This document shows positions 39,930-59,168 of a DNA stretch of 64,000 nucleotides, in pieces. Where the stretch lies: positions 186,001-250,000 of the forward strand of contig NZ_BBXC01000008.1 in NCBI RefSeq assembly GCF_001570525.1. Direction: 5' to 3'. Position 1 is the stretch's first letter, and every line of letters starts with the position of its first letter. Under the pieces are notes generated by a model that saw nothing but the letters and a program-made list of their open reading frames with translations, did no database searches and was not told the DNA's origin. This DNA is from Herbidospora sakaeratensis. Its GTDB lineage: Bacteria > Actinomycetota > Actinomycetes > Streptosporangiales > Streptosporangiaceae. The position numbers and the translations under genes are program-made.

Positions 39930-42884
39930 TTACGTGCGGGTCACGAAGTCGGCCAGCATCCGCACCCGGTCGGCGTGCTTGTCGTGGGCGATGATGATGG
40001 GCGGCTCGTTGTAGGCCATCGCGTCGGACGACCTTCGCAGCTTCACGTACTGGCCGCAGGCGTCGATGGCGTAGGGCTCCATGTCGTCCTGGAGCGCGCC
40101 GATCACGGTGATGCCGTAGGTCTCGCCGATGCGCCGGAACAGCGCGACCGCCTCGCGGCGGTGCTCCTTGCCGAGGTTGCGGCCGAGCTCGTCGAGGACC
40201 AGCGTCAGGTGCTTGCCGCCGCTCGACGCGATGGCCGCCGCGCAGACCAGCTTGACCGCCTTCTCGTCCATCAGCGCCGTGTTGGCCCGGCGGTTGTAGG
40301 GCACGTAGCCCTGCCCCTCGCCGCGTTTCCACTTCGGCACCACCCGCCACGACCAGCGCTGCTCCGGGTCGGCCGGGGCCGCGGGGACGGGGAAGTCGAG
40401 AGCCGCGCCGTAGCCGCCGTAGCCGGTGTCGAGCCGGTCGAACTCCTCGGCCACCCGGGTCAGGCGGGCCCGGATCGCCTCGGTGAGGGTCGCGCGGTGC
40501 ACGGCCGTCGACTGGGCGGCCTCCTCGGCGCCCCGGGTGGCGGCGGCCAGGTCGCGGCGGCGGGTGGTGATCTGGCTCTCGATCTGGCGGCGCTGGTGGC
40601 GTTCGTACTCCTCCTGGGCGCGCAGATAGGAGCCGAGCGCGTTGCACACCGCCTGGAAGGTGGCCAGTTCCTCGGCCGCGCGGCCGTCCTTGCGGGCGGC
40701 GATGAGGTAGACGAGCTCCTCGGGCATCTCGTCGCCGTCGTCGAAGGTGCCGCGCAGGGCGGCGTCGAGGTGGCGTTCGGCGGCCCGCCACCACTCGTCG
40801 GCGGTCAGCTCGTCGGCGGCGAGCCACTCCTGCGCGCCCTCGACGGTGCCGCCCCAGTCTCTGACCAGCTGGTCGAGCCCGAGCCCGGTTCGCTGGGCCT
40901 CGATGCGGGCGGCGCCGGCGCGGGCCTCGTCGCGGCGCGCGGTCAGGGCGTGCCGGCGGCCCTCCAGGCGGTCGGCCTCGACGTCACGGGTGCGGGCCCG
41001 GAAGTCGAGCGCGCCGACCTGCTCCTCGGCGGCGTCGAGCGCCGGGGTGAGCTCCCCGGCGGCGGCGGTCAACTCGGTGAGGCGCTCGCGCTGGGCGTCG
41101 AGCCGGGTGGCGAGCTCCGCCAGCCGGTCGGCGGCCTCGGCCCCTTCGACCCGGCGCTCGGCCGCGGCCACGCCGTCTTCGGCCCTCCGCACGGCCGACG
41201 CGGCGGCCTCCTGCGCGGCGACGGCCCGCTCGACCCGCTTGGCGGCGGCCTTGACGCGGGCGTCCCGCCCGGTGACCTGCGCCTCGGCGATCCCGACCAC
41301 GGCCACCCCGGACGAGGAGACCACGACGGAACCGGGGAAGGCGGCCAGAGCCTTCGTGGCGGCGTCCATGCCGGCGGCGTCGACCACCACGGCGTCGCGC
41401 GCGCCTTCGGTGACGCCGGCCTGCTCCGCCACGTCGAGGGCGTCGAGGAGGCCGGCGCCGGGGATGCCCGCCAGGCCCAGCGCGGTGAGCTGGGCGGCGG
41501 CCGGGCCGTTCTCGGCGTCGCGCAGGGCGGCTTGGGCGGTCTCGTGTTCGCGGTCGGCGACGCCCAGGGCCTTGAGCGCCTCGGCGTGGACCGTGCGGGC
41601 CTCGGCCAGTTCGGCGCGGGCCTGGGACGGATCGCGGCCGTCGGCCCTGCGGCGCTGTTCCTCCAGGGCCGGGATCTGGGTGCGGAGCTGGTCGGCGGTG
41701 TTCTGGGCAACCGCGCGTTCGGCCTCGACGCGGGCGGCGCTCGCCTGGGTGGCGGCCAGTTCGCGGCGGGCGGTGGCCAGCGCGCGGTCGAGGGAGTCGT
41801 CGCGCAGGGCCGCGATCTCGGCCTTGACCTCGGCGATGGCCCCTTCGGCCGTCTCGGCGGCGGCGTCGAACTCGGCGCGTTGCGCGGCCAGGGCGCCCTC
41901 GGCCTCGGCGGCGTCGGCGACCCGGCGGGCCAGGCGGCCGCGCCAGTGTTTCAGGGCGTCGGCCAGGCGTTCGCGGGCCTTGTCGCGGCGGTCGAAGGCG
42001 GCCAGCAGGTGGCGCGACTCGTCTTCGAAGTCGGCCAGGCGGCGCTGGGCGTCTTCGGCCCTGACGCGTTTGGCGTGTTCGTCGCGGCGGGCCTCGCGTT
42101 CCTGGTCGAGCTCGGCGTCGAGGCCGGTCAGGGCGGCGATGGCCTCGAAGATGCGGTCGGGCGAGATCTCGTTGAGGGGCTGGGAGAGCAGGTTGGTGGC
42201 GACCTTGCTGCGTACCGACGTGGAGAGGAACGACACGCACCGGACCCGGTCGCCATAGAGCACGCGGGTCAGGTCGCGCGCGACGACGTCGCGCCGCCCC
42301 GCGCTCTTGGGCAGCCCCGCCCAGATGACGTCGGCATGGGTGACCCGCTCGGCCTCGGAGGCGGCCGTCGCCAGGTGGACCCCCTCGGCCCACCGCACCT
42401 CCAGGTGCGGCGCCTCCTGGTTGACCCGCACCCACACGGTCACCGGCACCCCCGCCGACGGCACGTCGAAGACGCCGACGATGTAACCGTGGTCGGCGCT
42501 GGCCCACTGCTGGTCGCCGTGGGCGGCCAGCTCGGCGTTGAACAACAACTCGGAGACGGCCTTCGCCCCCGAGGCGAACCGCCACTGCTCGTCACCGAGC
42601 AGCGCCGTGATCGCGGCGATGAACGACGACTTCCCGGCCCCGTTGGAGTCCTTCGGCCCGGCCCCCGCGACGACGACGAGCGTGCCCGGCACGATCGGCA
42701 CGGTGTGGGTCGAAAGCCGCGAGATGTTCACGGCCTGCACCGCGACCAGCACCCGGTCGCCGACGACGTTGTCCTGCGCCGCCCGAACCGGCCGCACGTC
42801 ATCGATCGGCACGACGACCTGGAACAACCCGGAGGCCCCCGGCTCCCCCGGCTTGTCTCCGCTCAGATCGACGACCTCAGTCAT
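39930..42884 (-). CDS. SMC-like coiled-coil ATPase of a condensin-like operon
   Basis: A 984-residue ATPase. The N-terminal head has a Walker A, GPKDSNGAGKSS (76-87, Lys85). Long Ala/Arg/Glu-rich coiled coils follow from about 290. A short globular hinge-like segment lies near 475-535 (IPGAGLLDALDVAEQAG, DAVVVDAAGMDAATKAL), then a second coiled coil. The C-terminal head has LTLVLDELGRNLGKEH (Asp898-Glu899, Walker B) and ALQDDMEPYA. This is SMC/MksB/RecF-like architecture, but the head motifs differ from Wadjet JetC as I recall them. It probably binds or extrudes DNA with the two partners encoded upstream. ATG 42884 follows AAGGG. It is the last gene of the operon. Confidence 0.72.
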   Translation of the reverse strand: MTEVVDLSGDKPGEPGASGLFQVVVPIDDVRPVRAAQDNVVGDRVLVAVQAVNISRLSTHTVPIVPGTLVVVAGAGPKDSNGAGKSSFIAAITALLGDEQWRFASGAKAVSELLFNAELAAHGDQQWASADHGYIVGVFDVPSAGVPVTVWVRVNQEAPHLEVRWAEGVHLATAASEAERVTHADVIWAGLPKSAGRRDVVARDLTRVLYGDRVRCVSFLSTSVRSKVATNLLSQPLNEISPDRIFEAIAALTGLDAELDQEREARRDEHAKRVRAEDAQRRLADFEDESRHLLAAFDRRDKARERLADALKHWRGRLARRVADAAEAEGALAAQRAEFDAAAETAEGAIAEVKAEIAALRDDSLDRALATARRELAATQASAARVEAERAVAQNTADQLRTQIPALEEQRRRADGRDPSQARAELAEARTVHAEALKALGVADREHETAQAALRDAENGPAAAQLTALGLAGIPGAGLLDALDVAEQAGVTEGARDAVVVDAAGMDAATKALAAFPGSVVVSSSGVAVVGIAEAQVTGRDARVKAAAKRVERAVAAQEAAASAVRRAEDGVAAAERRVEGAEAADRLAELATRLDAQRERLTELTAAAGELTPALDAAEEQVGALDFRARTRDVEADRLEGRRHALTARRDEARAGAARIEAQRTGLGLDQLVRDWGGTVEGAQEWLAADELTADEWWRAAERHLDAALRGTFDDGDEMPEELVYLIAARKDGRAAEELATFQAVCNALGSYLRAQEEYERHQRRQIESQITTRRRDLAAATRGAEEAAQSTAVHRATLTEAIRARLTRVAEEFDRLDTGYGGYGAALDFPVPAAPADPEQRWSWRVVPKWKRGEGQGYVPYNRRANTALMDEKAVKLVCAAAIASSGGKHLTLVLDELGRNLGKEHRREAVALFRRIGETYGITVIGALQDDMEPYAIDACGQYVKLRRSSDAMAYNEPPIIIAHDKHADRVRMLADFVTRT

Positions 42885-43114
42885 CCCATGCCCTTCCCGA
42901 ACCGAACCCGAAGACATCCCTGCGACCCGCACCCGGCACGAGAAGCCCACCTGCCCGCGACCCGCGCCGCCGGCGAGCACTCTCCCTGACCGCCCTGCCG
43001 GAAGCTCCACGCGACTGACCGCGGCGCTGCACCAGCTGGAAGACCGAGCACCGTGCTTCCTCGGCCAGAGCCGCCGGCACGTGGCCCTCCAACGGCCAGA
43101 ACACCGCGCATCAT
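42881..43114 (-). CDS. Possible 77-codon ORF bridging the KITE-like and SMC-like genes
   Basis: The ATG (43114-43112) overlaps the KITE-like stop as ATGA, and its TGA (42883-42881) overlaps the SMC-like ATG as ATGA, so it would couple the two genes. The product is Gly/Arg/Ser-rich and unlike known folds, and its third-position GC is only moderate. A competing frame, VFWPLEGHVPAALAEE and onward, has better coding bias at first. Either a real linker peptide or a decayed spacer. Confidence 0.3.
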   Translation of the reverse strand: MMRGVLAVGGPRAGGSGRGSTVLGLPAGAAPRSVAWSFRQGGQGECSPAARVAGRWASRAGCGSQGCLRVRFGKGMG

Positions 43115-44271
43115 GTTTCCCCGTCCGGCGTCGCCGGCTCGTGGCGGCGGCGTTTGGCCCGGATGGCCACGGCCAGTGGCGTCTGCGGGCCGGCCGCGAG
43201 GATGAGTTCCTCCTGCAGCCGCGCCCGCGCCGCCCGGGTCAGCCGGTGGAACTGCGGGCCCGGCACGTAGCCGCCCGCGCCCTCTTCATTGGTCTTCTGC
43301 TGGGCGATCAGGCCCGCCTGCCGGAGCGAGCGCAGCGCGGCCTCCAGTTCGCCGATCGGCAGCAGGGTGCGGCGGCGCAGTTCCTCGGTCGCGACCGGAT
43401 ACTGCGACAACCAGGTGTCCTCGCCCAGCAGGCCCTCCGCCCGGGGGATCGCCACCGAGTGGACCAGCACGAGCGCCAGCACCGCGCGCTCGGCCTCGGG
43501 CAGGGAGGTGACCCGGTAGGCGTCGGTGTAGCCGGAGATCCACGCGTCGCGCCGCTGCTGCAGCACCCGGCCCCGGCGAGCCAGCATCTCCATCAGCGCC
43601 CGCCGCAGCGCCGGGTCGCGCAGCGCGGCGAAGCGCGCCTCGTGGACCGGCTCGGCCGCCGTCTCGACCGCCACGAACGCGGCCACCAGCTCGGCCCGCC
43701 GCCGCTCGTCGAACGCCCCGAGCAGGTCGCCGAACTCGTCGGGCCCCTCGTCGCGCGCCTCGACGACGGGCGTCACCTCGCCCGACGGCACGGGCGCGGC
43801 GATGCGCCGCATCAGCTCCCGCAGCTGGACGTGGCCGTCGGCGGTCCAGAGCACGCAGCGCGGCCCGAGCCGGAGCGTGCCGAACCCCGAGAGCACGATC
43901 CAGCCGGTGTCGTGGAGCCGCCGCAGCGCGCCCACGGCCCAGCTGCGCACCGAGTCGTCGGTGCGGCCGACCATCGTGCGGTAGCAGGCGAGCACGTCGT
44001 CGACCGCCGCCCACACCCCCGGCCACGGCTCGGCGTCGAGGTCGGCCCAGCACATGCGCAGGCAGCAGGCCAGCACCCGCCGGGTCTCCCCCGCCCGTTC
44101 CACGGGCGCGGCGGCGATCTGGTACTCCTCCAGCAACGAGGGCGACGCCCCGTCGGGCCACACGGGCACCCCGACCTCACCGACCCGGACGAACCCCGGC
44201 GGCACCGGCCCACTCAGCGCCACGAGCCCGGACGACCGCGCCTCGGCATGCGCCTCACCCATGGAACCCAT
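43111..44271 (-). CDS. KITE/MksE-like winged-helix subunit of the SMC-like operon
   Basis: A 386-residue protein, mostly helical. The C-terminal region has a winged-helix pattern (LLPIGELEAALRSLRQAGLIAQQ), where such subunits dimerise and bind kleisin. It contains no catalytic motif I recognise. By gene order (kleisin, KITE, SMC) it should be the MksE-like partner. ATG 44271 follows GGAG at seven bases, and the gene overlaps the upstream kleisin-like gene by 17 bases. Assignment is by context and secondary structure only. Confidence 0.55.
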   Translation of the reverse strand: MGSMGEAHAEARSSGLVALSGPVPPGFVRVGEVGVPVWPDGASPSLLEEYQIAAAPVERAGETRRVLACCLRMCWADLDAEPWPGVWAAVDDVLACYRTMVGRTDDSVRSWAVGALRRLHDTGWIVLSGFGTLRLGPRCVLWTADGHVQLRELMRRIAAPVPSGEVTPVVEARDEGPDEFGDLLGAFDERRRAELVAAFVAVETAAEPVHEARFAALRDPALRRALMEMLARRGRVLQQRRDAWISGYTDAYRVTSLPEAERAVLALVLVHSVAIPRAEGLLGEDTWLSQYPVATEELRRRTLLPIGELEAALRSLRQAGLIAQQKTNEEGAGGYVPGPQFHRLTRAARARLQEELILAAGPQTPLAVAIRAKRRRHEPATPDGET

Positions 44272-45481
44272 CCGTGCGCTCCAGCCGGCCGTGGGACAAC
44301 CAGCTCGGGTGCCCCGACGGGTCGGCCGACAAGGTGTCGGACCAGGCCAGCCGGTAGGGCGCCTCCGGATGCAGGTCGGCCGAGGCCAGGTCGGCCAGCA
44401 CGCGGCGAATGGTCGACCAGTCGCCCCGCAGCACCTCCTCCAGCGCCACCGCGTCTCGGTCGCCGAGCAGTGATTCGGCCGTCTCGGTGAACCGGCCGGG
44501 GGCGTTCGCCGCCAGGGACGACGACGCGCCCTCGTCGGGCAGGGCCGAGCGTGGGGGCGCGGGACGGACCGGGACCGGGCGGGGGGCCTCGTCGACCGCG
44601 CGGACGATCGCGCCCGGGTCGTGCCACGGCGCCGCGGCGTCGAAGACGAAGCCGTCGAGGACGGCGGCGAGGCGTTCTCTGGTGGCCGTCTGGGCGAAGG
44701 TGCGCCAGGTCTCGGCCGGGAGCAGGGTCAGGTTGCGGGTGGTGCCGGCCGAGTCGGCCAGGCGGCCGGCGGCGCGGCGGGAGGCGTCGCTGTAGGCGTA
44801 GATGGCCGAGCGGAGGTCGGTGCAGACGCGGTCGAGGTCGGGCCAGCGGGTGAGGATCGTGGTGTGCAGGCTCTGGGCCCGGCGGGCGATCTCCTCGGTG
44901 CCCCACAACTTGGGGGCCTGTTCGCGCAGTTCCTCGATGGTGCCGGTGGTCAGGGTCACGAGTTCGAGGGCCCACAGGCGGAAGGCGCGGGCCAGCATGT
45001 CGGCCGAGCGGCGGGCCTGTTCCATCGTGGTGCGGGGGCCGGCGACCGTGAGGTCTTCGAGGGCGAGCAGGCGGTGCATCTCGCTCTGGCCGCCGTCGTC
45101 CATCATGCGGCGGATGAACATCAGGCCGACGACGGAGGTGAACGACGCCCGGTAGCGCAGCTGGTTGGGCTTGGGGAACACCTCGCGGATCGCGCCGAGG
45201 CCGCGCAGCACGCGGAGCCGGTTCTCGAACTGCTCGACCGGATGGGCGCGGCACGCGTGGCGCATCTGCTCGTGGGTCAGCCACTCCTCGCCCGCCTCGG
45301 CGAACGCCGCGAACAGGGTCTCGGCGATGTCGACCAGGGCGGGGTCGTCGACGACGGCGCCGCTGTCGCGGGCCAGCGCGGCGAACATGCGGCGGTAGGT
45401 GACCAGCACCGCCTCGTCGGACAGCGCCGAGTCGAGCGTCTCGGGTAGCACGCGCCCCACCGTAGGGCACCCCTCCGACAT
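44255..45481 (-). CDS. Kleisin/MksF-like subunit of the SMC-like operon
   Basis: A 408-residue helical protein. The N-terminal part (about 60-120) has a winged-helix look: EEWLTHEQMRHACRAHP, RLRVLRGLGAIREV, NQLRYRASFTSVVGLMF, as in MksF-type kleisins. A Pro-rich linker (about 290-325) precedes a short helical C-terminal domain that could bind the second SMC head. No enzyme motif is seen. It is the first gene of the operon; ATG 45481 has AGGA at seven bases, and GTG 45460 with GGAGGGG is an alternative. It is 22 bases from the divergent AlkZ-like gene. Confidence 0.55.
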   Translation of the reverse strand: MSEGCPTVGRVLPETLDSALSDEAVLVTYRRMFAALARDSGAVVDDPALVDIAETLFAAFAEAGEEWLTHEQMRHACRAHPVEQFENRLRVLRGLGAIREVFPKPNQLRYRASFTSVVGLMFIRRMMDDGGQSEMHRLLALEDLTVAGPRTTMEQARRSADMLARAFRLWALELVTLTTGTIEELREQAPKLWGTEEIARRAQSLHTTILTRWPDLDRVCTDLRSAIYAYSDASRRAAGRLADSAGTTRNLTLLPAETWRTFAQTATRERLAAVLDGFVFDAAAPWHDPGAIVRAVDEAPRPVPVRPAPPRSALPDEGASSSLAANAPGRFTETAESLLGDRDAVALEEVLRGDWSTIRRVLADLASADLHPEAPYRLAWSDTLSADPSGHPSWLSHGRLERTDGFHG

Positions 45482-45491
45482 TCCGTGTTCC

Positions 45492-45503
45492 TAGGATCGT
45501 TCC
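45492..45503 (+). promoter_or_regulatory. Leaderless -10 element for the AlkZ-like gene
   Basis: TAGGAT (45492-45497) followed by six bases and GTG 45504 is the classic leaderless pattern. It occupies the only 22 bases between the divergent genes, so expression of the two directions may interfere. Confidence 0.5.
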
Positions 45504-46424
45504 GTGAACGATCCATGGCCGAGACGGGCCGCCGCGCAGTTGTTCGACCGGCCCCGCACGACCGTGCCGGAGCTGGTGCGCGCGCTCCTGGCCGTACAGG
45601 CGCAGGATTCGAAGGCGGCGGCGCTGGCGCTGCGCGCCCGGGGCACCGGGTTCACCAGAGCGGATGTCGAACAGGCCATCCGGGCCAAGGAGATCGTCCG
45701 CGCCTGGGGGCCGCGCGGCACGCTGCACCTGATCGCCGCCGACGACCTGCCCTGGCTGCTCTCCCTCACCCGGCCCTCGACGGCCACCATCGCCCGGCGT
45801 CTCACGCAGCTCGGCGTCACCGGCGACGACCTGGCCGGGCGGGTCGAGAAGGCCACCTACGGGCAGGGCCCGCTCACCAAGGCCGAGCTCGGCGAGCGGC
45901 TGCGGGCCGAGGGGCAGGCGATCATCCATCTGGCCGCGCTGGCGGCCGAGCGGGGGCGGCTGGTGCTCGGGCCCGACAAGGGCGGCAAGGCGACCTACGT
46001 GCACGCCGCCGACTGGCTGGGCGCGCCGATCGCCTTCGAGCCCGATCGGGACAAGGCTCTCAAGGAGCTCGGGACGCGCTACGCACGGGCGCACGCCCCG
46101 GCCACGCCCGAGGACCTCGCCTACTGGTCGGGGGTGAGCCTGAAAGAGGCGCGGCGGGCGCATCAGGACGTACCGGAGAAAGAGCCGTGGGAAGGCACCC
46201 GGCTGGTGCCCGCCTTCGATGAGTTTCTGCTCGGCTGGAAGGAACGTGCCCCGATGACCGTTCCAACGGCGACGATCGTGCCGGGCGGGGGAATGATCCG
46301 CCCGGCCGTTGTCAAGGACGGGAAGATCGTCGCAACGTGGTCGCTCGGTGGAAATGATCGCGAAATTCGAGCCGATGAGGAATTCGCGGACATCGCGAAT
46401 TTCCTTCACATCACCAGCAAATAG
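45504..46424 (+). CDS. AlkZ-like winged-helix DNA glycosylase
   Basis: A 306-residue protein of the HTH_42 family. LLAVQAQDSKAAALALRAR contains the QxQ motif (Gln32, Gln34), which in AlkZ performs water activation for cleavage of the damaged base, so it should be active. IVRAWGPRGTLHLIAADDLPWLL and WSGVSLKEARRA are other family segments. AlkZ enzymes unhook interstrand DNA crosslinks and are often tied to resistance to DNA-damaging metabolites. It is divergent from the SMC-like operon, which hints at a joint DNA-repair or defence module. It overlaps the M50-like gene by 19 bases. Confidence 0.82.
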   Translation: MNDPWPRRAAAQLFDRPRTTVPELVRALLAVQAQDSKAAALALRARGTGFTRADVEQAIRAKEIVRAWGPRGTLHLIAADDLPWLLSLTRPSTATIARRLTQLGVTGDDLAGRVEKATYGQGPLTKAELGERLRAEGQAIIHLAALAAERGRLVLGPDKGGKATYVHAADWLGAPIAFEPDRDKALKELGTRYARAHAPATPEDLAYWSGVSLKEARRAHQDVPEKEPWEGTRLVPAFDEFLLGWKERAPMTVPTATIVPGGGMIRPAVVKDGKIVATWSLGGNDREIRADEEFADIANFLHITSK

Positions 46425-54189: not shown

Positions 54190-57100
54190 TCAGCGCAGGG
54201 TCGAGCCCGCTCTTCCCTTGTGGACGCGCAACTGGGCCGGGATCCGGACCCGGAGTTCGGCGACGTGGCTGACCACGCCGACCGCGCGCCCTCCCTCGCG
54301 CAGGGAGTCGAGGATGTCGAGGACGTCGTCGAGGGTCTCCTCGTCGAGGGTGCCGAAGCCCTCGTCGACGAAGAGGGTGCCGATCTCCGCGCCGCCCGCC
54401 TCGGCCGCGACCACGTCGGCCAGGCCCAGAGCCAGCGCCAGTGACGTGATGAAGCTCTCGCCGCCCGAGAGGGTGGCCGGGTCGCGGTCGACGCCGGTCC
54501 AGGCGTCGAGGACGCGCAGCCCCAGGCCGCCGCCCGAGCGGCCGCGGTGTCCCGCCGTCTTCTTCACGTCGTACTGCAGCAGGTAGCGGCCGTCGGACAT
54601 GTGGGTGAGGCGCTCGTTGGCGGCGTCGGCGACCTGGCGCAGGCGTTCGCCGAGGACGTAGGACGACAACGGCATGTCCCACTGATTGTCGGGCGAGGTG
54701 CCGTTGGCGAGTTCGGCCATCCGGCGGGCCAGCCGGTGGCGGCGCTCGGCGGGGGCGCGGCGGGCCTGCGCTTCGGCGAGTTCGGCCGCCAGCGCCCTGA
54801 GCTGGGTGAGCCGGGCGACGGCGCCGTCGCGCGCGGACACCTGGACCGACCGGGCCGCGTCGGCCTCGTCGTGGGCCTGTTGCAGGCCGGGGAGGTCGGG
54901 CGCGGGCTGGGCGGCGGCGGCCTGCAGTTCGGGGTCGGCGAGGGTGCGCACCACGGCGGCCAGTTCGTCGCCCAGGTCGCGCAGGCGGCCGCCCATCTCG
55001 TCGATCTCGGCCGGGGTGCGGCGCGCGGCGGCCAGGTCGTCGAGCCCGGTGAAGCCCGCGTCGACGGCGGCGGCCAGCGCGGCGTTCCTGGCGGCGGCGA
55101 GCTCCCGCCCGGCCTCGTGGAGCGCTTCGGAGACCTCGGCGGCGCGGCGGTAGGCCTCGGTTTCGGCGCGGAGGCGTTCGACCCGCTCGTAGATGGAGGC
55201 GTCATCGCCCCGCAGCCGGTCGAGCCGGGCCTTGAGGTCGGACTCCTCATGGGCGAACCGGCCCCGGGCGGCCCGGGTCTCCATGAGCAGCGTGGTGTCG
55301 GCGCTCTCCTTGACCCTCAGGCCGCCGACCTCGCGGGTCAGGTGCTCGACGGCATGCCGGGCGGCGAGACGGCCGTCGAGAACGACGGTGAGCTCCTCGA
55401 CCGCCTGCCGCGCCTGGGCGAGCAGGGCGTGCGCGGCCGGAACATCGGGCCAGACCGCCGGTTCGGGCGGCAGCCGCTTCGCGTCCACGCCCAGGGAGAG
55501 GACCTCGCTCGCACCCCTGCCGAACCGATCCGCAGCTGCGAGGGCCGAGCCGCCACCATCGGCATCGCCAGCTTCACCAGCCTGATGCAAGCCCGTGAAG
55601 CTCGAGCCCCCACCACCACCACGATTGGGGAACTCCAGATCGGTGCCCCTGGTCATGGCCGCGACCTGGTGGCGCGCATCCGTGAGGAGGCCCGTCAGGG
55701 CGGTCGCCCTCGCCTCCGCTGCCAAGGCCGCGCCGATCGCCGCCGCCTCTGTCGTCAGGCGGGTGCGGCGGGAGGAGACCGTCTCGCCCGGATCGAGCGC
55801 GGCGGACAGGCGGACCTCGATGCGTTCCTCCTCCGCACGGGAGGTCTGCTGCCTCGTCTGGAGTTCCCGCAAGACCAAGGCGGTTTCGGCCTCCGCTTCG
55901 CGGACGTCGCCGAGGGCCGTCTCCAGGCGGGTGACCTCGTCGCGGTGGGCGGGTTCGCGGGCGGCGGCGGCCTCCACAACCGCCAGGTCGGTTCGGGCCT
56001 CCTCGCGGGCCTGTTCGGCTTCGGCCTGGGACAGGCCGTCGGCGGTGTCGGCGGCGCGTTCGTGCCGGCCCTCGAGGGTGGCGACCGTCGACTCGGCCGC
56101 CTCTCTGGCCGACTGGGCCGCGTCGGCCTCCGCCTGGGCGGCCTCCTCGTCGTCGGCGGTGGCCATCTCGGACGACGGCTCGGCCGGAGCGGGGTGGTCG
56201 GGGGAGCCGCAGACGGCGCACGGGTCGCCCTCGGCCAGGCGGGCGGCCAGCTCGGCGGCCATGCCGTCGATTCTGGCCTGGCGGATCTCGTGGAGGCGGT
56301 CGACGGCCGACTGGGCGGCGTCGACGGCGACGCGGCGGGCGTCTTCGGCGGCGGCCAGGTCGGCGGCGAGTTCGTCGCGGCGGATCACCGCTTCGAGCCG
56401 CTCCTCGGCCGCGACCAGGCGTGATCGGGCCGAGGGCAGGGCGGCGGCCTGTTCGCGCGAGGTGGCCAGGCGGGCGGCGGCCTCGGCCAGGAGGCCGGGC
56501 AGGGTGGTCAGGCGGTCGGCGAGTTCGGTCTCGACGCCCGCCAGGCGGGCGGCTTCGGTTTCGGCGGCCTCGCGGTCGGCCCGGAGCGCGGTCAGGCGTG
56601 ACTCCTCGCCGTCGAGGGCGTCGAGGCGGGCGAGTTCGTCGCGGCGGTCGCGTTCGAGGGTGGCGAGCTCCGGCTCGGCCAGGCCCGGGTGGCCGGCCGC
56701 CACGCGGGCGGCCGCGGCCTCGGCGAGGTCGGCGGTGATCGTGTCGCGGCGGCGGACGGCTTCGAGCAGGTCGGCCGCGCGTTCGCGGGCGGCCTCGGCG
56801 CCGGGCAGGGCGGCTTCGGCGACCGTGGCGGCGGCGCGGCGCTCTTCGGCCTCGGAGAGCTCGGCGGTGGCGGCCTCCAGGCGGTCGGCCGTCTCGCGCA
56901 GGCCCTTCTCCAGGGTCGCGATCTCGTCGTTGAGGTGTTCCTGCTCGCGGATCACGCCGTGGAGGCGGGCCTCGTCGCCGAGGGCCTCTTCCAGCCGGAC
57001 CAGTTCGTCGCGGCGGGTGCGTTCGGCTTTGCGGTGGTCGGTCTCGGCGAGGCCCGAGGCGCCCGCGTCGAAGGCCGCCGACGCGGCCGACGCCGTCTGC

Positions 57101-58077
57101 TCGCGGGCCGTCAGCTGGTCGAGCAGCGGGACGACGCGGGCCGCCGCCGCGGCCTCGGCCAGGATCGTCTCCAGGTCGGCGCGTTCGTCGGCGCGGGCCT
57201 CCAGCTCGTCGTGGCGGATGCGGGCCGCCGTGTGGCGGCGCCGGCGGTCGGCCAGGTCGCGGGCTTCGGCCAGGCGGTCGCGGGCCTGGCGGAGGGCCTC
57301 GTCGGAGACCGCCGCCTCGGCCGAGGTGACGGCGGCCGAGGCGGCGGCGAGCAGGGCCGACGACCAGTCGAGCGGGTCGTCGGCTTCGCCGGCGAGCGCG
57401 GCCAGTTCGGGGCCGGCCGCGCCGCGCATGCGGTCGGCGCGGGCGCGGACCTCCTCGGCGAGCCGCTCGGCGACCCGGCCGGTCTCCCGGCGGTGGTCGG
57501 CGAGCCACTTCTCCATGTCGGTGAACACCCGCACGGTGAACAGGCGCTCCAGCAGCTTGCGGCGGTCGTCGCCGGAGGAGCGCAGGAACCTGGCGAACTC
57601 GCCCTGCGGCAACATGACGACCTGGCCGAACTGCTCGGCGTTCATGCCGAGCAGGCCGCCGATGAAGTCGCCCGCCTCGTCGATCCGGGTGGTCACCGGG
57701 GCCCAGTCGCCGTCGCGGAGCTCCTGGACGATCACCTTGGCCTGCTCCTGGGTGGTGCCCTGCCCCCGGAGCTTGGGGCGGGCCCACGCGGGCGAGCGGG
57801 TGACGCGCAGGGTGCGGCCCCGGATCGTGGTCTCCAGCACGACCTGCGGCCCCCGGCCCGGGGGCGCGTGGTCGCAGCGCAGCGACCGGGCGTCGTTGCG
57901 CTGGCCGGGGACGACCCCGAACAGGGCGCAGCAGACGGCGTCGAGGATGGTGGTCTTGCCCGCCCCGGTGGGGCCGTGGATCAGGAAGAGCCCGGCCTCG
58001 CCGAGCCGGTCGAAGTCGACCTCCTCGGCGCCGGGGAAGGACCCGAAGGCCGAGATCGTCAGCCGGTGGAGGCGCAT
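54190..58077 (-). CDS. sbcC: SbcC, nuclease complex ATPase, extra long
   Basis: A 1295-residue SMC-like ATPase. The N head has GPTGAGKTTILDAV, and the C head LSGGESFITSLALALGLAD and LFVDEGFGTLDE. The zinc hook CAVC (about residue 617) sits between two very long coiled coils. With SbcD it trims hairpin and protein-blocked DNA ends. ATG 58077 shares one base with the sbcD stop. Residues about 808-870 form a Gly/Ser-rich insertion (RGGGGGSSFTGLHQAG) that breaks the second coiled coil; it is unusual and is treated as a finding. Confidence 0.9.
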   Translation of the reverse strand: MRLHRLTISAFGSFPGAEEVDFDRLGEAGLFLIHGPTGAGKTTILDAVCCALFGVVPGQRNDARSLRCDHAPPGRGPQVVLETTIRGRTLRVTRSPAWARPKLRGQGTTQEQAKVIVQELRDGDWAPVTTRIDEAGDFIGGLLGMNAEQFGQVVMLPQGEFARFLRSSGDDRRKLLERLFTVRVFTDMEKWLADHRRETGRVAERLAEEVRARADRMRGAAGPELAALAGEADDPLDWSSALLAAASAAVTSAEAAVSDEALRQARDRLAEARDLADRRRRHTAARIRHDELEARADERADLETILAEAAAAARVVPLLDQLTAREQTASAASAAFDAGASGLAETDHRKAERTRRDELVRLEEALGDEARLHGVIREQEHLNDEIATLEKGLRETADRLEAATAELSEAEERRAAATVAEAALPGAEAARERAADLLEAVRRRDTITADLAEAAAARVAAGHPGLAEPELATLERDRRDELARLDALDGEESRLTALRADREAAETEAARLAGVETELADRLTTLPGLLAEAAARLATSREQAAALPSARSRLVAAEERLEAVIRRDELAADLAAAEDARRVAVDAAQSAVDRLHEIRQARIDGMAAELAARLAEGDPCAVCGSPDHPAPAEPSSEMATADDEEAAQAEADAAQSAREAAESTVATLEGRHERAADTADGLSQAEAEQAREEARTDLAVVEAAAAREPAHRDEVTRLETALGDVREAEAETALVLRELQTRQQTSRAEEERIEVRLSAALDPGETVSSRRTRLTTEAAAIGAALAAEARATALTGLLTDARHQVAAMTRGTDLEFPNRGGGGGSSFTGLHQAGEAGDADGGGSALAAADRFGRGASEVLSLGVDAKRLPPEPAVWPDVPAAHALLAQARQAVEELTVVLDGRLAARHAVEHLTREVGGLRVKESADTTLLMETRAARGRFAHEESDLKARLDRLRGDDASIYERVERLRAETEAYRRAAEVSEALHEAGRELAAARNAALAAAVDAGFTGLDDLAAARRTPAEIDEMGGRLRDLGDELAAVVRTLADPELQAAAAQPAPDLPGLQQAHDEADAARSVQVSARDGAVARLTQLRALAAELAEAQARRAPAERRHRLARRMAELANGTSPDNQWDMPLSSYVLGERLRQVADAANERLTHMSDGRYLLQYDVKKTAGHRGRSGGGLGLRVLDAWTGVDRDPATLSGGESFITSLALALGLADVVAAEAGGAEIGTLFVDEGFGTLDEETLDDVLDILDSLREGGRAVGVVSHVAELRVRIPAQLRVHKGRAGSTLR

Positions 58078-59168
58078 CAGGCCATCGTCTCCTTGATGCG
58101 GCAGGCCATCGCGGCTTCTTCGAGGACACGTCGCTCGTCGGGGTCGGCCGCCTCGCCGCGGACCTCGCGGACGAAGTCGAGCGCCACGTCGATCTCGGGC
58201 CGCCCGGCCAGCCGGGGGCGCGCGGGCGCGGCCTCGGGCGCGTCGTCGGGGGCGAACTGGAGGTCGACGGTGTGGGGGAAGCGGGCCCGCAGCCGCTCCA
58301 TCGCGGCCTTCGGCCGGACCGGGTCGGTGAGGGTCGCCTGGATCCAGTCGCCGGACGGCGGGAGCGCCAGCAGGTCGTCGATCCGGCCCCGGAGCCGGGC
58401 GAGCCGGCGCGGCACCGGCGCGGGCACGAAGTCGATCGGGCCGCCGAGCTCGACCAGCCACGACCCCTTCACGTGGTCGGTCTCGGAGAAGGAGTAGGCG
58501 ATCGGGGAGCCGGAGTAGCGGACCGTCTCGCTCATGGTCTGGCGGCCGTGGAGGTGGCCGAGGGCCGTGTAGGCGGCCCCGTCGAAGACCCGCACGGGCA
58601 CGTGGGCCACCCCGCCGACGGTGATGTCGCGCTCGCTGTCGCTGGCCGCTCCCCCGGTGACGAAGGCGTGGGCCAGCACCACCTTGGCGGGGGCGGCGTC
58701 GTCGAGACGTACCCGATCCATGACGTGGGTCATGGCGGCCGTGTGGGTGCGCTCGGGGAGGTTCCACGGAGTGCGGACGAGCTCGGGCTCCAGGTAGGGA
58801 ATCCCGTAGAAGGCGACGTCGTTCACGACGATTGGGGACCATGCGCGGTGGGGGTCGGTGCGCAGGTGGATGCGGTCCATCAGGCCGGCGCCGAAGCCGA
58901 GCCGGACGGGCGAGTCGTGGTTGCCGCTGATGATCACCGTGTGCACGCCGAGACCGCGTAAGCGGCGCAGCGTCTCGTCGAACAGGGCGACCGCGTCGAC
59001 CGGCGGAAGCGCCCGGTCGTAGACGTCACCGGCCACCAGCACGACGTCGACCCGCTCGGACCTGGCGGTCTCGACCAGGTGGTCGGCGAACGCCGCCTGG
59101 GCCGGGAGCAGGCTCTCGCGGTGGAAGGACCGGCCCAGGTGCCAGTCGGACGTGTGCAGCAGCCGCAT
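58077..59168 (-). CDS. sbcD: SbcD, nuclease subunit
   Basis: A 363-residue metallophosphoesterase. HTSDWHLGRSFH (5-16), VVLVAGDVYDRA, IISGNHDSP and LGHLHGRQ give the full metal-binding set of the Mre11 family. It supplies the nuclease of the SbcCD complex. ATG 59168 starts at the conserved MRLLHTSDWH. It is first of the two-gene operon. Confidence 0.93.
   Translation of the reverse strand: MRLLHTSDWHLGRSFHRESLLPAQAAFADHLVETARSERVDVVLVAGDVYDRALPPVDAVALFDETLRRLRGLGVHTVIISGNHDSPVRLGFGAGLMDRIHLRTDPHRAWSPIVVNDVAFYGIPYLEPELVRTPWNLPERTHTAAMTHVMDRVRLDDAAPAKVVLAHAFVTGGAASDSERDITVGGVAHVPVRVFDGAAYTALGHLHGRQTMSETVRYSGSPIAYSFSETDHVKGSWLVELGGPIDFVPAPVPRRLARLRGRIDDLLALPPSGDWIQATLTDPVRPKAAMERLRARFPHTVDLQFAPDDAPEAAPARPRLAGRPEIDVALDFVREVRGEAADPDERRVLEEAAMACRIKETMA

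Follow-up and report, generated by a model that had tools for sequence, protein, structure and literature searches.

A JetD-free SMC module of the Wadjet/Mks kind in Herbidospora sakaeratensis and related actinomycetes

Known Wadjet, Mks or kleisin-interacting tandem winged-helix element (KITE) complexes built around structural maintenance of chromosomes (SMC) proteins are treated in parts of PMC12647877, PMC10512200 and PMC10406323. In Wadjet, as set out in parts of a review, JetABC senses circles and JetD cuts them (PMC10586767). A passage of PMC10123090 presents MksG as the nuclease of MksBEFG, and one of PMC7485682 describes how MksBEF helps organize and segregate the Pseudomonas aeruginosa chromosome. 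Section 7 of the review calls the origin of Wadjet unresolved and speculates that defense complexes gave rise to chromosome-folding ones such as MukBEF and MksBEF (PMC10586767).

The window considered here is a stretch of 64,000 nucleotides from Herbidospora sakaeratensis (assembly GCF_001570525.1, contig NZ_BBXC01000008.1, positions 186,001 to 250,000). It contains three genes, termed A, B and SMC, which a preliminary description of the DNA had taken for a condensin-like module of the Mks/Wadjet kind without the nuclease JetD. The module is real, conserved and of that kind. The description had known of no published account, and none was found in the open-access papers viewed, which were part of the longer result lists. 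The best explanation, with a probability of about 0.55, is that A, B and SMC assemble into a condensin-like complex and represent a fourth, so far unnamed lineage of the Wadjet/Mks type; the JetD-free branch of this lineage would probably have lost JetD once and would now act on chromosomal DNA.

Gene content and relationship to JetC

The open reading frames have the sizes first given for them (408, 386 and 984 codons), all on the minus strand. All three had been called overlapping, which is true of A and B (17 shared bases, 8 if the second ATG is used) but not of SMC, whose frame, counted from its ATG, begins 226 bases 3' of B. The features of the trio are as follows.

44255..45481, minus strand: gene A, putative kleisin, 408 aa; chiefly helical, the C-terminal part containing strands and resembling a winged helix; the kleisin role is suggested by operon place and weak hints
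43111..44271, minus strand: gene B, fused protein with predicted tandem winged helices (AlphaFold2 model, Foldseek), KITE-like, 386 aa
43777..44271, minus strand: B1 half of gene B, residues 1-165; its own gene in 22 of 75 named loci
43138..43746, minus strand: B2 half of gene B, residues 176-378; the model shows two winged-helix units
39930..42884, minus strand: SMC gene, ATPase heads with coiled coil and hinge, 984 aa
42624..42659, minus strand: SMC Walker A, GPKDSNGAGKSS, residues 76-87, counted below across JetD-free sequences
41238..41486, minus strand: SMC hinge region, about residues 467-549, homologous to the type I JetC hinge
40251..40301, minus strand: place of the SMC ABC signature, about residues 862-878, with N-T-A and not SGG[EQ]; residue correspondence ambiguous
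40167..40208, minus strand: SMC Walker B, LTLVLDELGRNLGK, residues 893-906, including VLDELG

In a scan of 84,980 species genomes, 332 of the 450 pattern matches encoded SMC relatives; counts for named loci rest on the 79 loci read among the best 80 of these relatives. SMC and the B2 half occur together in 79/79 loci; 75 of these also have B1, and 74 have A (some incomplete). In the five loci lacking A and the four lacking B1 the SMC gene lies less than 2 kb from a contig end. This co-occurrence is more than chance. Where both halves of B are present (75 loci), they are fused in 53 and encoded separately, as B1 and B2, in 22. A recent duplication as the source of the two halves was rejected on their hhalign score of 0.1%.

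Compared by hhalign with a profile of type I JetC (JetC1), the SMC protein scores 98.4% (E 9e-15) over residues 55-524 against 5-546, a stretch that takes in the N-terminal head with Walker A, the coil and the hinge. This is about level with the yardstick pair JetC2 and JetC1 (98.8%), whereas the window SMC scores 76% against JetC2 (35% in the other alignment mode). Walker A, Walker B, and the coil and hinge homologous to type I JetC bear out the features first read from the letters. These profile-profile comparisons covered Jet types I and II, with 5 and 10 sequences per protein, respectively; the type I profile was built from six plasmid loci, three of them unannotated and assigned by similarity to locus L246.

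SMC obtained only generic P-loop or coiled-coil scores from NCBIfam, Pfam and PADLOC, and 19.7 bits from the SMC_prok models, against a cut-off of 567 (protein P0001). The same genome encodes the canonical SMC in another gene (L003), of which a scanned stretch of 541 residues scores 445.7 bits; this would make the trio a second condensin. No family of Pfam or NCBIfam and no PADLOC Jet family matches A or B; the window proteins have no match at E <= 1 to the PADLOC JetA, JetB and JetC models of types I-III; and relatives scanned with the PADLOC Jet models gave no JetA, and JetB or JetC at best at E 2e-4. PDB sequence searches with A, B and SMC returned coiled-coil, designed-repeat or ABC-transporter matches or none, and no trustworthy SMC-complex relative; one SMC3 coiled-coil entry matched at E 1e-4.

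In the 51 JetD-free sequences, the Walker A pattern GP[KT]DSNGAGKS is found in 48 and is missing from the other three as extracted. At the place of the JetC SGGE signature, all 51 window-type rows have N-T-A, seven JetD-bearing rows have N-[TG]-A and locus L090 has N-S-A, although an alternative alignment sets L-M-D-E there and leaves residue correspondence ambiguous. An SGG string does occur in 38/51 window-type rows, but in none from the second family described below (f21). In the window it precedes the Walker B aspartate by about 10 residues, compared with 30 for N-T-A and 35 for the JetC2 signature. Because of this short distance and its absence from f21, the string is taken for a loop and not the signature. 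The suspicion that the head motifs differ from those of JetC proved correct for types I and II.

The lineage has been seen in actinomycetes only. Among the 79 named loci, 78 are titled as genera or the family of the order Streptosporangiales, and one is an Actinomycetes metagenome-assembled genome. B was found in 62/150 sampled genomes of the family, and A in 65/150 genomes of the order sample, confined to the same family and to 15/39 genera; JetD-bearing copies are included in each of these counts. Sampling across the class yielded 12 genomes of 148: three from the window's family, eight from f21 and one weak match in a third. The JetD-free branch spans two families. All eight f21 loci have A, B1, B2 and SMC, and mostly share neighbors of their own; over the best segments, their A, B and SMC reach 41-51% identity with the window counterparts. 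In five of these loci (L234-L238), a gene of 307-323 aa (cluster c15) follows downstream of SMC in the same orientation, directly adjacent in three; it could be an extra operon member.

With Wadjet type I/MksBEFG (JetABCD), the locus shares the order putative kleisin-KITE-SMC and the homology of SMC to JetC1 from N-terminal head to hinge. The differences are that the window and its clade have no JetD, that A and B have no significant profile match to JetA1 and JetB1, that the signature place of SMC does not hold SGG[EQ], and that B has 386 aa in two halves, whereas the JetB1 set has 214-275 aa. The test for JetD was negative, and for this reason the window copy is not classed among the Wadjet systems.

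Type II (DUF2397/DUF2398/TIGR02680) is alike in its three-subunit core and in the length of JetB2, which is close to that of B. It is unlike in its JetC2, which has 1339-1444 aa in the set compared and carries SGGE and GNNGTGKS, whereas the window SMC has 984 aa. Assignment of the trio to type II was rejected, as A and B score below 4% in profile-profile comparison and type II exists as a separate system in relatives; the window genome has no match to TIGR02678, the type II JetB family. A complete type II Wadjet (JetA2-B2-C2-D2) lies at L202, 5547-13466, in another genome (G109) of the window's genus, and at L212, 5448-10581, a type II-like operon has its JetC called at just 858 aa. A type I Wadjet on a Vibrio nigripulchritudo plasmid (L251, 8828-13550) has its JetC region split by a gene annotated as an IS3-family transposase.

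JetD and the two branches of the lineage

The claim that the module lacks JetD stands at every window-type locus inspected. JetD was looked for without success at the 79 named loci, the eight f21 loci and L084, L085, L091 and L092, in flanks of up to 10 kb (some contigs being shorter). Genome-wide, JetD_C is absent at E <= 0.001 from 32/36 window-type genomes, this Herbidospora included; a type II JetD is not necessarily detectable by this model. In the other four genomes, JetD_C occurs elsewhere (G070, G271 and G321) or in a second, JetD-bearing copy of the module (G079). Some Mks operons lack MksG.

A JetD homologue does adjoin the trio in seven more divergent copies of the module (L086, L087, L088, L089, L242, L243 and L244), either upstream and co-directional or downstream and convergent. 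Two of these loci checked against Pfam match PF09983 (JetD_C) with 46 and 59 bits (cut-off 22), the TOPRIM residues E-N and D-x-D are retained in four aligned sequences, and the three scanned are closest to JetD1 models, a further likeness to type I. Two genomes, G079 and G121 (the latter with 8% contamination), hold both JetD-free and JetD-bearing forms. The second copy in G079 is a four-gene operon, D-A-B-SMC (L089, 5876-13112), and its G+C content is 53-62% compared with 65-70% at the ends of the locus.

Phylogenetic trees, drawn from 61 loci (31 for SMC, 32 for A and 17 plus five outgroup proteins for a rooted tree), separate the two forms. In the SMC tree, seven JetD-bearing rows fall on one side of a branch with support 94/91, and 23 window-type rows on another (100/100). 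The A tree places the window type in one clade (24 rows, 100/100) and needs two changes of the JetD label, owing to L090 and an unresolved fork. When the tree is rooted with five type I JetC proteins, the window type (10 rows, 97/97) is sister to a JetD clade (7 rows, 96/95), six of whose seven rows have JetD; this run carries warnings about a single long row and uneven composition.

The JetD-free branch is under purifying selection. Against two other Herbidospora, dN/dS (the ratio of nonsynonymous to synonymous substitution rates) is 0.06-0.09 for A, 0.13-0.18 for B and 0.17-0.20 for SMC; against Microtetraspora the values are 0.18, 0.33 and 0.28.

Other Wadjet types also have JetD: types I and II do so here, and type III does so as its PADLOC model names indicate. 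One loss on the window-type stem is thus the simpler history, and JetD was probably lost there once. Since sister clades with and without JetD exist, and two genomes hold both forms, the change from a cutting to a non-cutting complex is directly testable.

Candidate kleisin and KITE subunits, and the counter-evidence

The first two proteins had been credited with winged-helix-like patterns and called kleisin- and KITE-like; the winged helices find support in B and little in A. AlphaFold2 models were made from alignments that retained, after length filters, 69/74 A proteins and 94 B pieces. The B model (mean predicted local distance difference test score, pLDDT, 80; predicted TM-score, pTM, 0.46) carries tandem winged helices. 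In a Foldseek search of the PDB with this model, ScpB (6juv) gave the sole matches at E <= 0.001 (4.9e-4 and 9.1e-4). Ranks 3-5 and 8 are MukBEF or MukEF chains, and MAGE-A3, a MukE-length chain and a JetABC chain follow at ranks 18, 19 and 50. As modeled, then, B is nearest ScpB, which suggests a KITE role. If B1 is a KITE unit, the two halves would resemble the eukaryotic Smc5/6 complex with its Nse1/Nse3 KITE pair, partly described in PMC10512200, in having two different KITE units and no homodimer; this is an analogy only.

Gene A is only a putative kleisin. Foldseek lists MukBEF, MukEF and Wadjet-II chains at ranks 2, 6, 23, 31 and 46 of 201 (E 0.6-2.9). The first two of these are a MukF-length MukBEF chain (rank 2, E 0.60) and a Wadjet-II chain (rank 6), and they are only hints.

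Several observations weigh against a condensin-like complex with a chromosomal role. The A model is poor (pLDDT 59), so that its winged helices are weakly supported, and it has no PDB fold match at E <= 0.001. A scores 20.9% against the JetA1 profile (4.1% in the other mode), but the wrong pair, B1 and JetA1, scores 16.5%, and a deeper, less diverse A alignment lowers the score of A to 0.7%. For B, ScpB is matched with low TM-scores (0.18-0.21 by query and 0.32-0.37 by target), the MukBEF/MukEF chains matched are by length mostly the kleisin MukF and not the KITE MukE, many winged-helix regulators are listed together with the glycosylase AlkX at rank 9, and the JetB1 and JetB2 profiles give at most 1.3%, no match. 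The C-terminal head of SMC, taken alone, scores a nonsignificant 1.6% and 1.3% against the JetC heads, whereas JetC1 and JetC2 score 97.3% against each other; with SGG missing at the signature place as well, ATPase competence is not certain. On the evolutionary side, two of the three trees, those of SMC and A, carry long-branch warnings; JetD is missing at L090, a member of the JetD clade, and JetD_C is absent from the genome of this copy (G115); and a gain of JetD by the sister clade is a conceivable alternative to its loss. The unmatched A and B profiles, on the other hand, are no evidence against kleisin and KITE, since the accepted kleisins JetA2 and JetA1 score 0.6% and JetB2 and JetB1 21.4%.

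Possible activity, alternatives and neighboring genes

In the proposed complex, two SMC proteins would pair at the hinge, and A, as the kleisin, would bridge the SMC heads and close the ring. B would supply the KITE units in one chain, the task of separate B1 and B2 proteins in other genera. The heads would bind and hydrolyze ATP and so drive DNA clamping and probably loop extrusion, without cutting. The sister clade, with its JetD endonuclease, would presumably be an anti-plasmid system, and in the window branch the most likely course is that a single loss of JetD on the stem left a resident chromosomal locus under purifying selection. The trio may now organize, segregate or protect the cell's own DNA beside the canonical SMC. 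In this it would be like P. aeruginosa MksBEF, which by published description, in part of PMC7485682, is a second, chromosomal condensin beside the canonical SMC; it is unlike MksBEF in the actinomycete confinement of its lineage. Handling of own DNA is likelier than destruction of invaders, given the lack of a cutting subunit and the chromosomal residence of the trio in many soil actinomycetes.

Such a complex would be a bacterial SMC complex whose KITE part consists of two different units, and it would add an SMC head in which SGG[EQ] is missing from the position of the signature. It would also provide a second, unstudied condensin candidate for Nonomuraea, Streptosporangium, Actinomadura and Herbidospora. 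A bolder form of the proposal is offered tentatively and is doubtful as a whole: an anti-plasmid SMC machine would have been domesticated by a single loss of its nuclease, and this fourth Wadjet-like lineage would now serve entire genera of actinomycetes as a second chromosomal condensin, its KITE unit being heterodimeric (and fused here) and its head lacking the canonical ABC signature, possibly in partnership with SbcCD at DNA ends or forks.

Of the alternatives, the one that survives best, though unlikely, is that the trio still serves defense by sensing plasmid or phage DNA and recruiting a nuclease encoded elsewhere, for example the SbcCD found within about 10 kb in many relatives. SbcC and/or SbcD stand in the fetched flanks of 44/79 named loci: downstream and convergent in 39, upstream in 4, and downstream and co-directional in 1. 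The JetD of the sister clade is also consistent with continued defense. This neighborhood may, however, be inherited, none of the eight f21 loci has an SbcC or SbcD match at E <= 1e-3, and the 32/36 genomes without JetD_C also count against a recruited nuclease. In the window the pair occupies the following position.

54190..59168, minus strand: SbcC (54190-58077) and SbcD (58077-59168), recurrent neighbors in the family; a link with the trio is possible but unproven

The window SbcC has about 1295 aa. SbcCD (Mre11-Rad50) resembles the trio in being a coiled-coil ABC ATPase, and it recurs near the trio in the family; it differs in having no kleisin or KITE, and its genes are separate in the window. 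The second P-loop gene of the window was considered as a Wadjet gene and rejected, being SbcC with SbcD.

Next, and also unlikely, comes control of plasmids or phages without any nuclease, in which small circles would be compacted, silenced or mis-segregated but left uncut. The absence of JetD would fit this mode of action, as would homology to JetABC, the sensor of size and shape according to part of the review (PMC10586767). The window type was, however, not seen on real plasmids or viral contigs: no relative was confirmed among the viral contigs, and in the plasmid collection just one record matched, a Nonomuraea replicon of 11.85 Mb. For the same reason, a mobile or plasmid-borne nature of the window type was rejected.

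It is improbable, too, that SMC is a coiled-coil ATPase of the Rad50, RecN or Lamassu kind accompanied by two winged-helix regulators and not by a kleisin and KITE. The weak matches of SMC to the mad3/mad8 and LmuB models, the unproven fold of A and the weak fold matches of B leave some room for this. It is opposed by an SMC hinge homologous to that of JetC, by ScpB as the best fold of B, by a three-gene order like that of Wadjet/Mks and by JetD in the sister clade.

The remaining alternative, a crosslink-repair unit formed with the divergent AlkZ-like glycosylase gene, is very improbable and largely refuted by synteny. That gene is positioned as follows.

45504..46424, plus strand: AlkZ-like DNA glycosylase gene (PF06224), 306 codons; divergent neighbor, probably outside the system

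It does lie 22 bases from gene A on the other strand, as first described, and it matches PF06224 with 163.5 bits (cut-off 25.9) and has the QAQ motif. The pairing with crosslink repair had been made to depend on conserved synteny, and this failed. An AlkZ-like gene is divergent and adjacent (<400 bp) in 10/67 loci (six Herbidospora, three Nonomuraea and one Streptosporangium), the count covering those of the 74 A-bearing loci with at least 1.2 kb upstream; one of the seven loci left out, L169 (Acrocarpospora), has it too. No AlkZ-like match at E <= 1e-3 was found in the eight f21 loci. Since the trio and this gene are not kept together, the crosslink-repair half of the preliminary description is refuted and the AlkZ partnership rejected. 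The AlkZ-like gene also evolves faster than the trio, with dN/dS of 0.24-0.34 versus 0.06-0.20 in the two Herbidospora comparisons.

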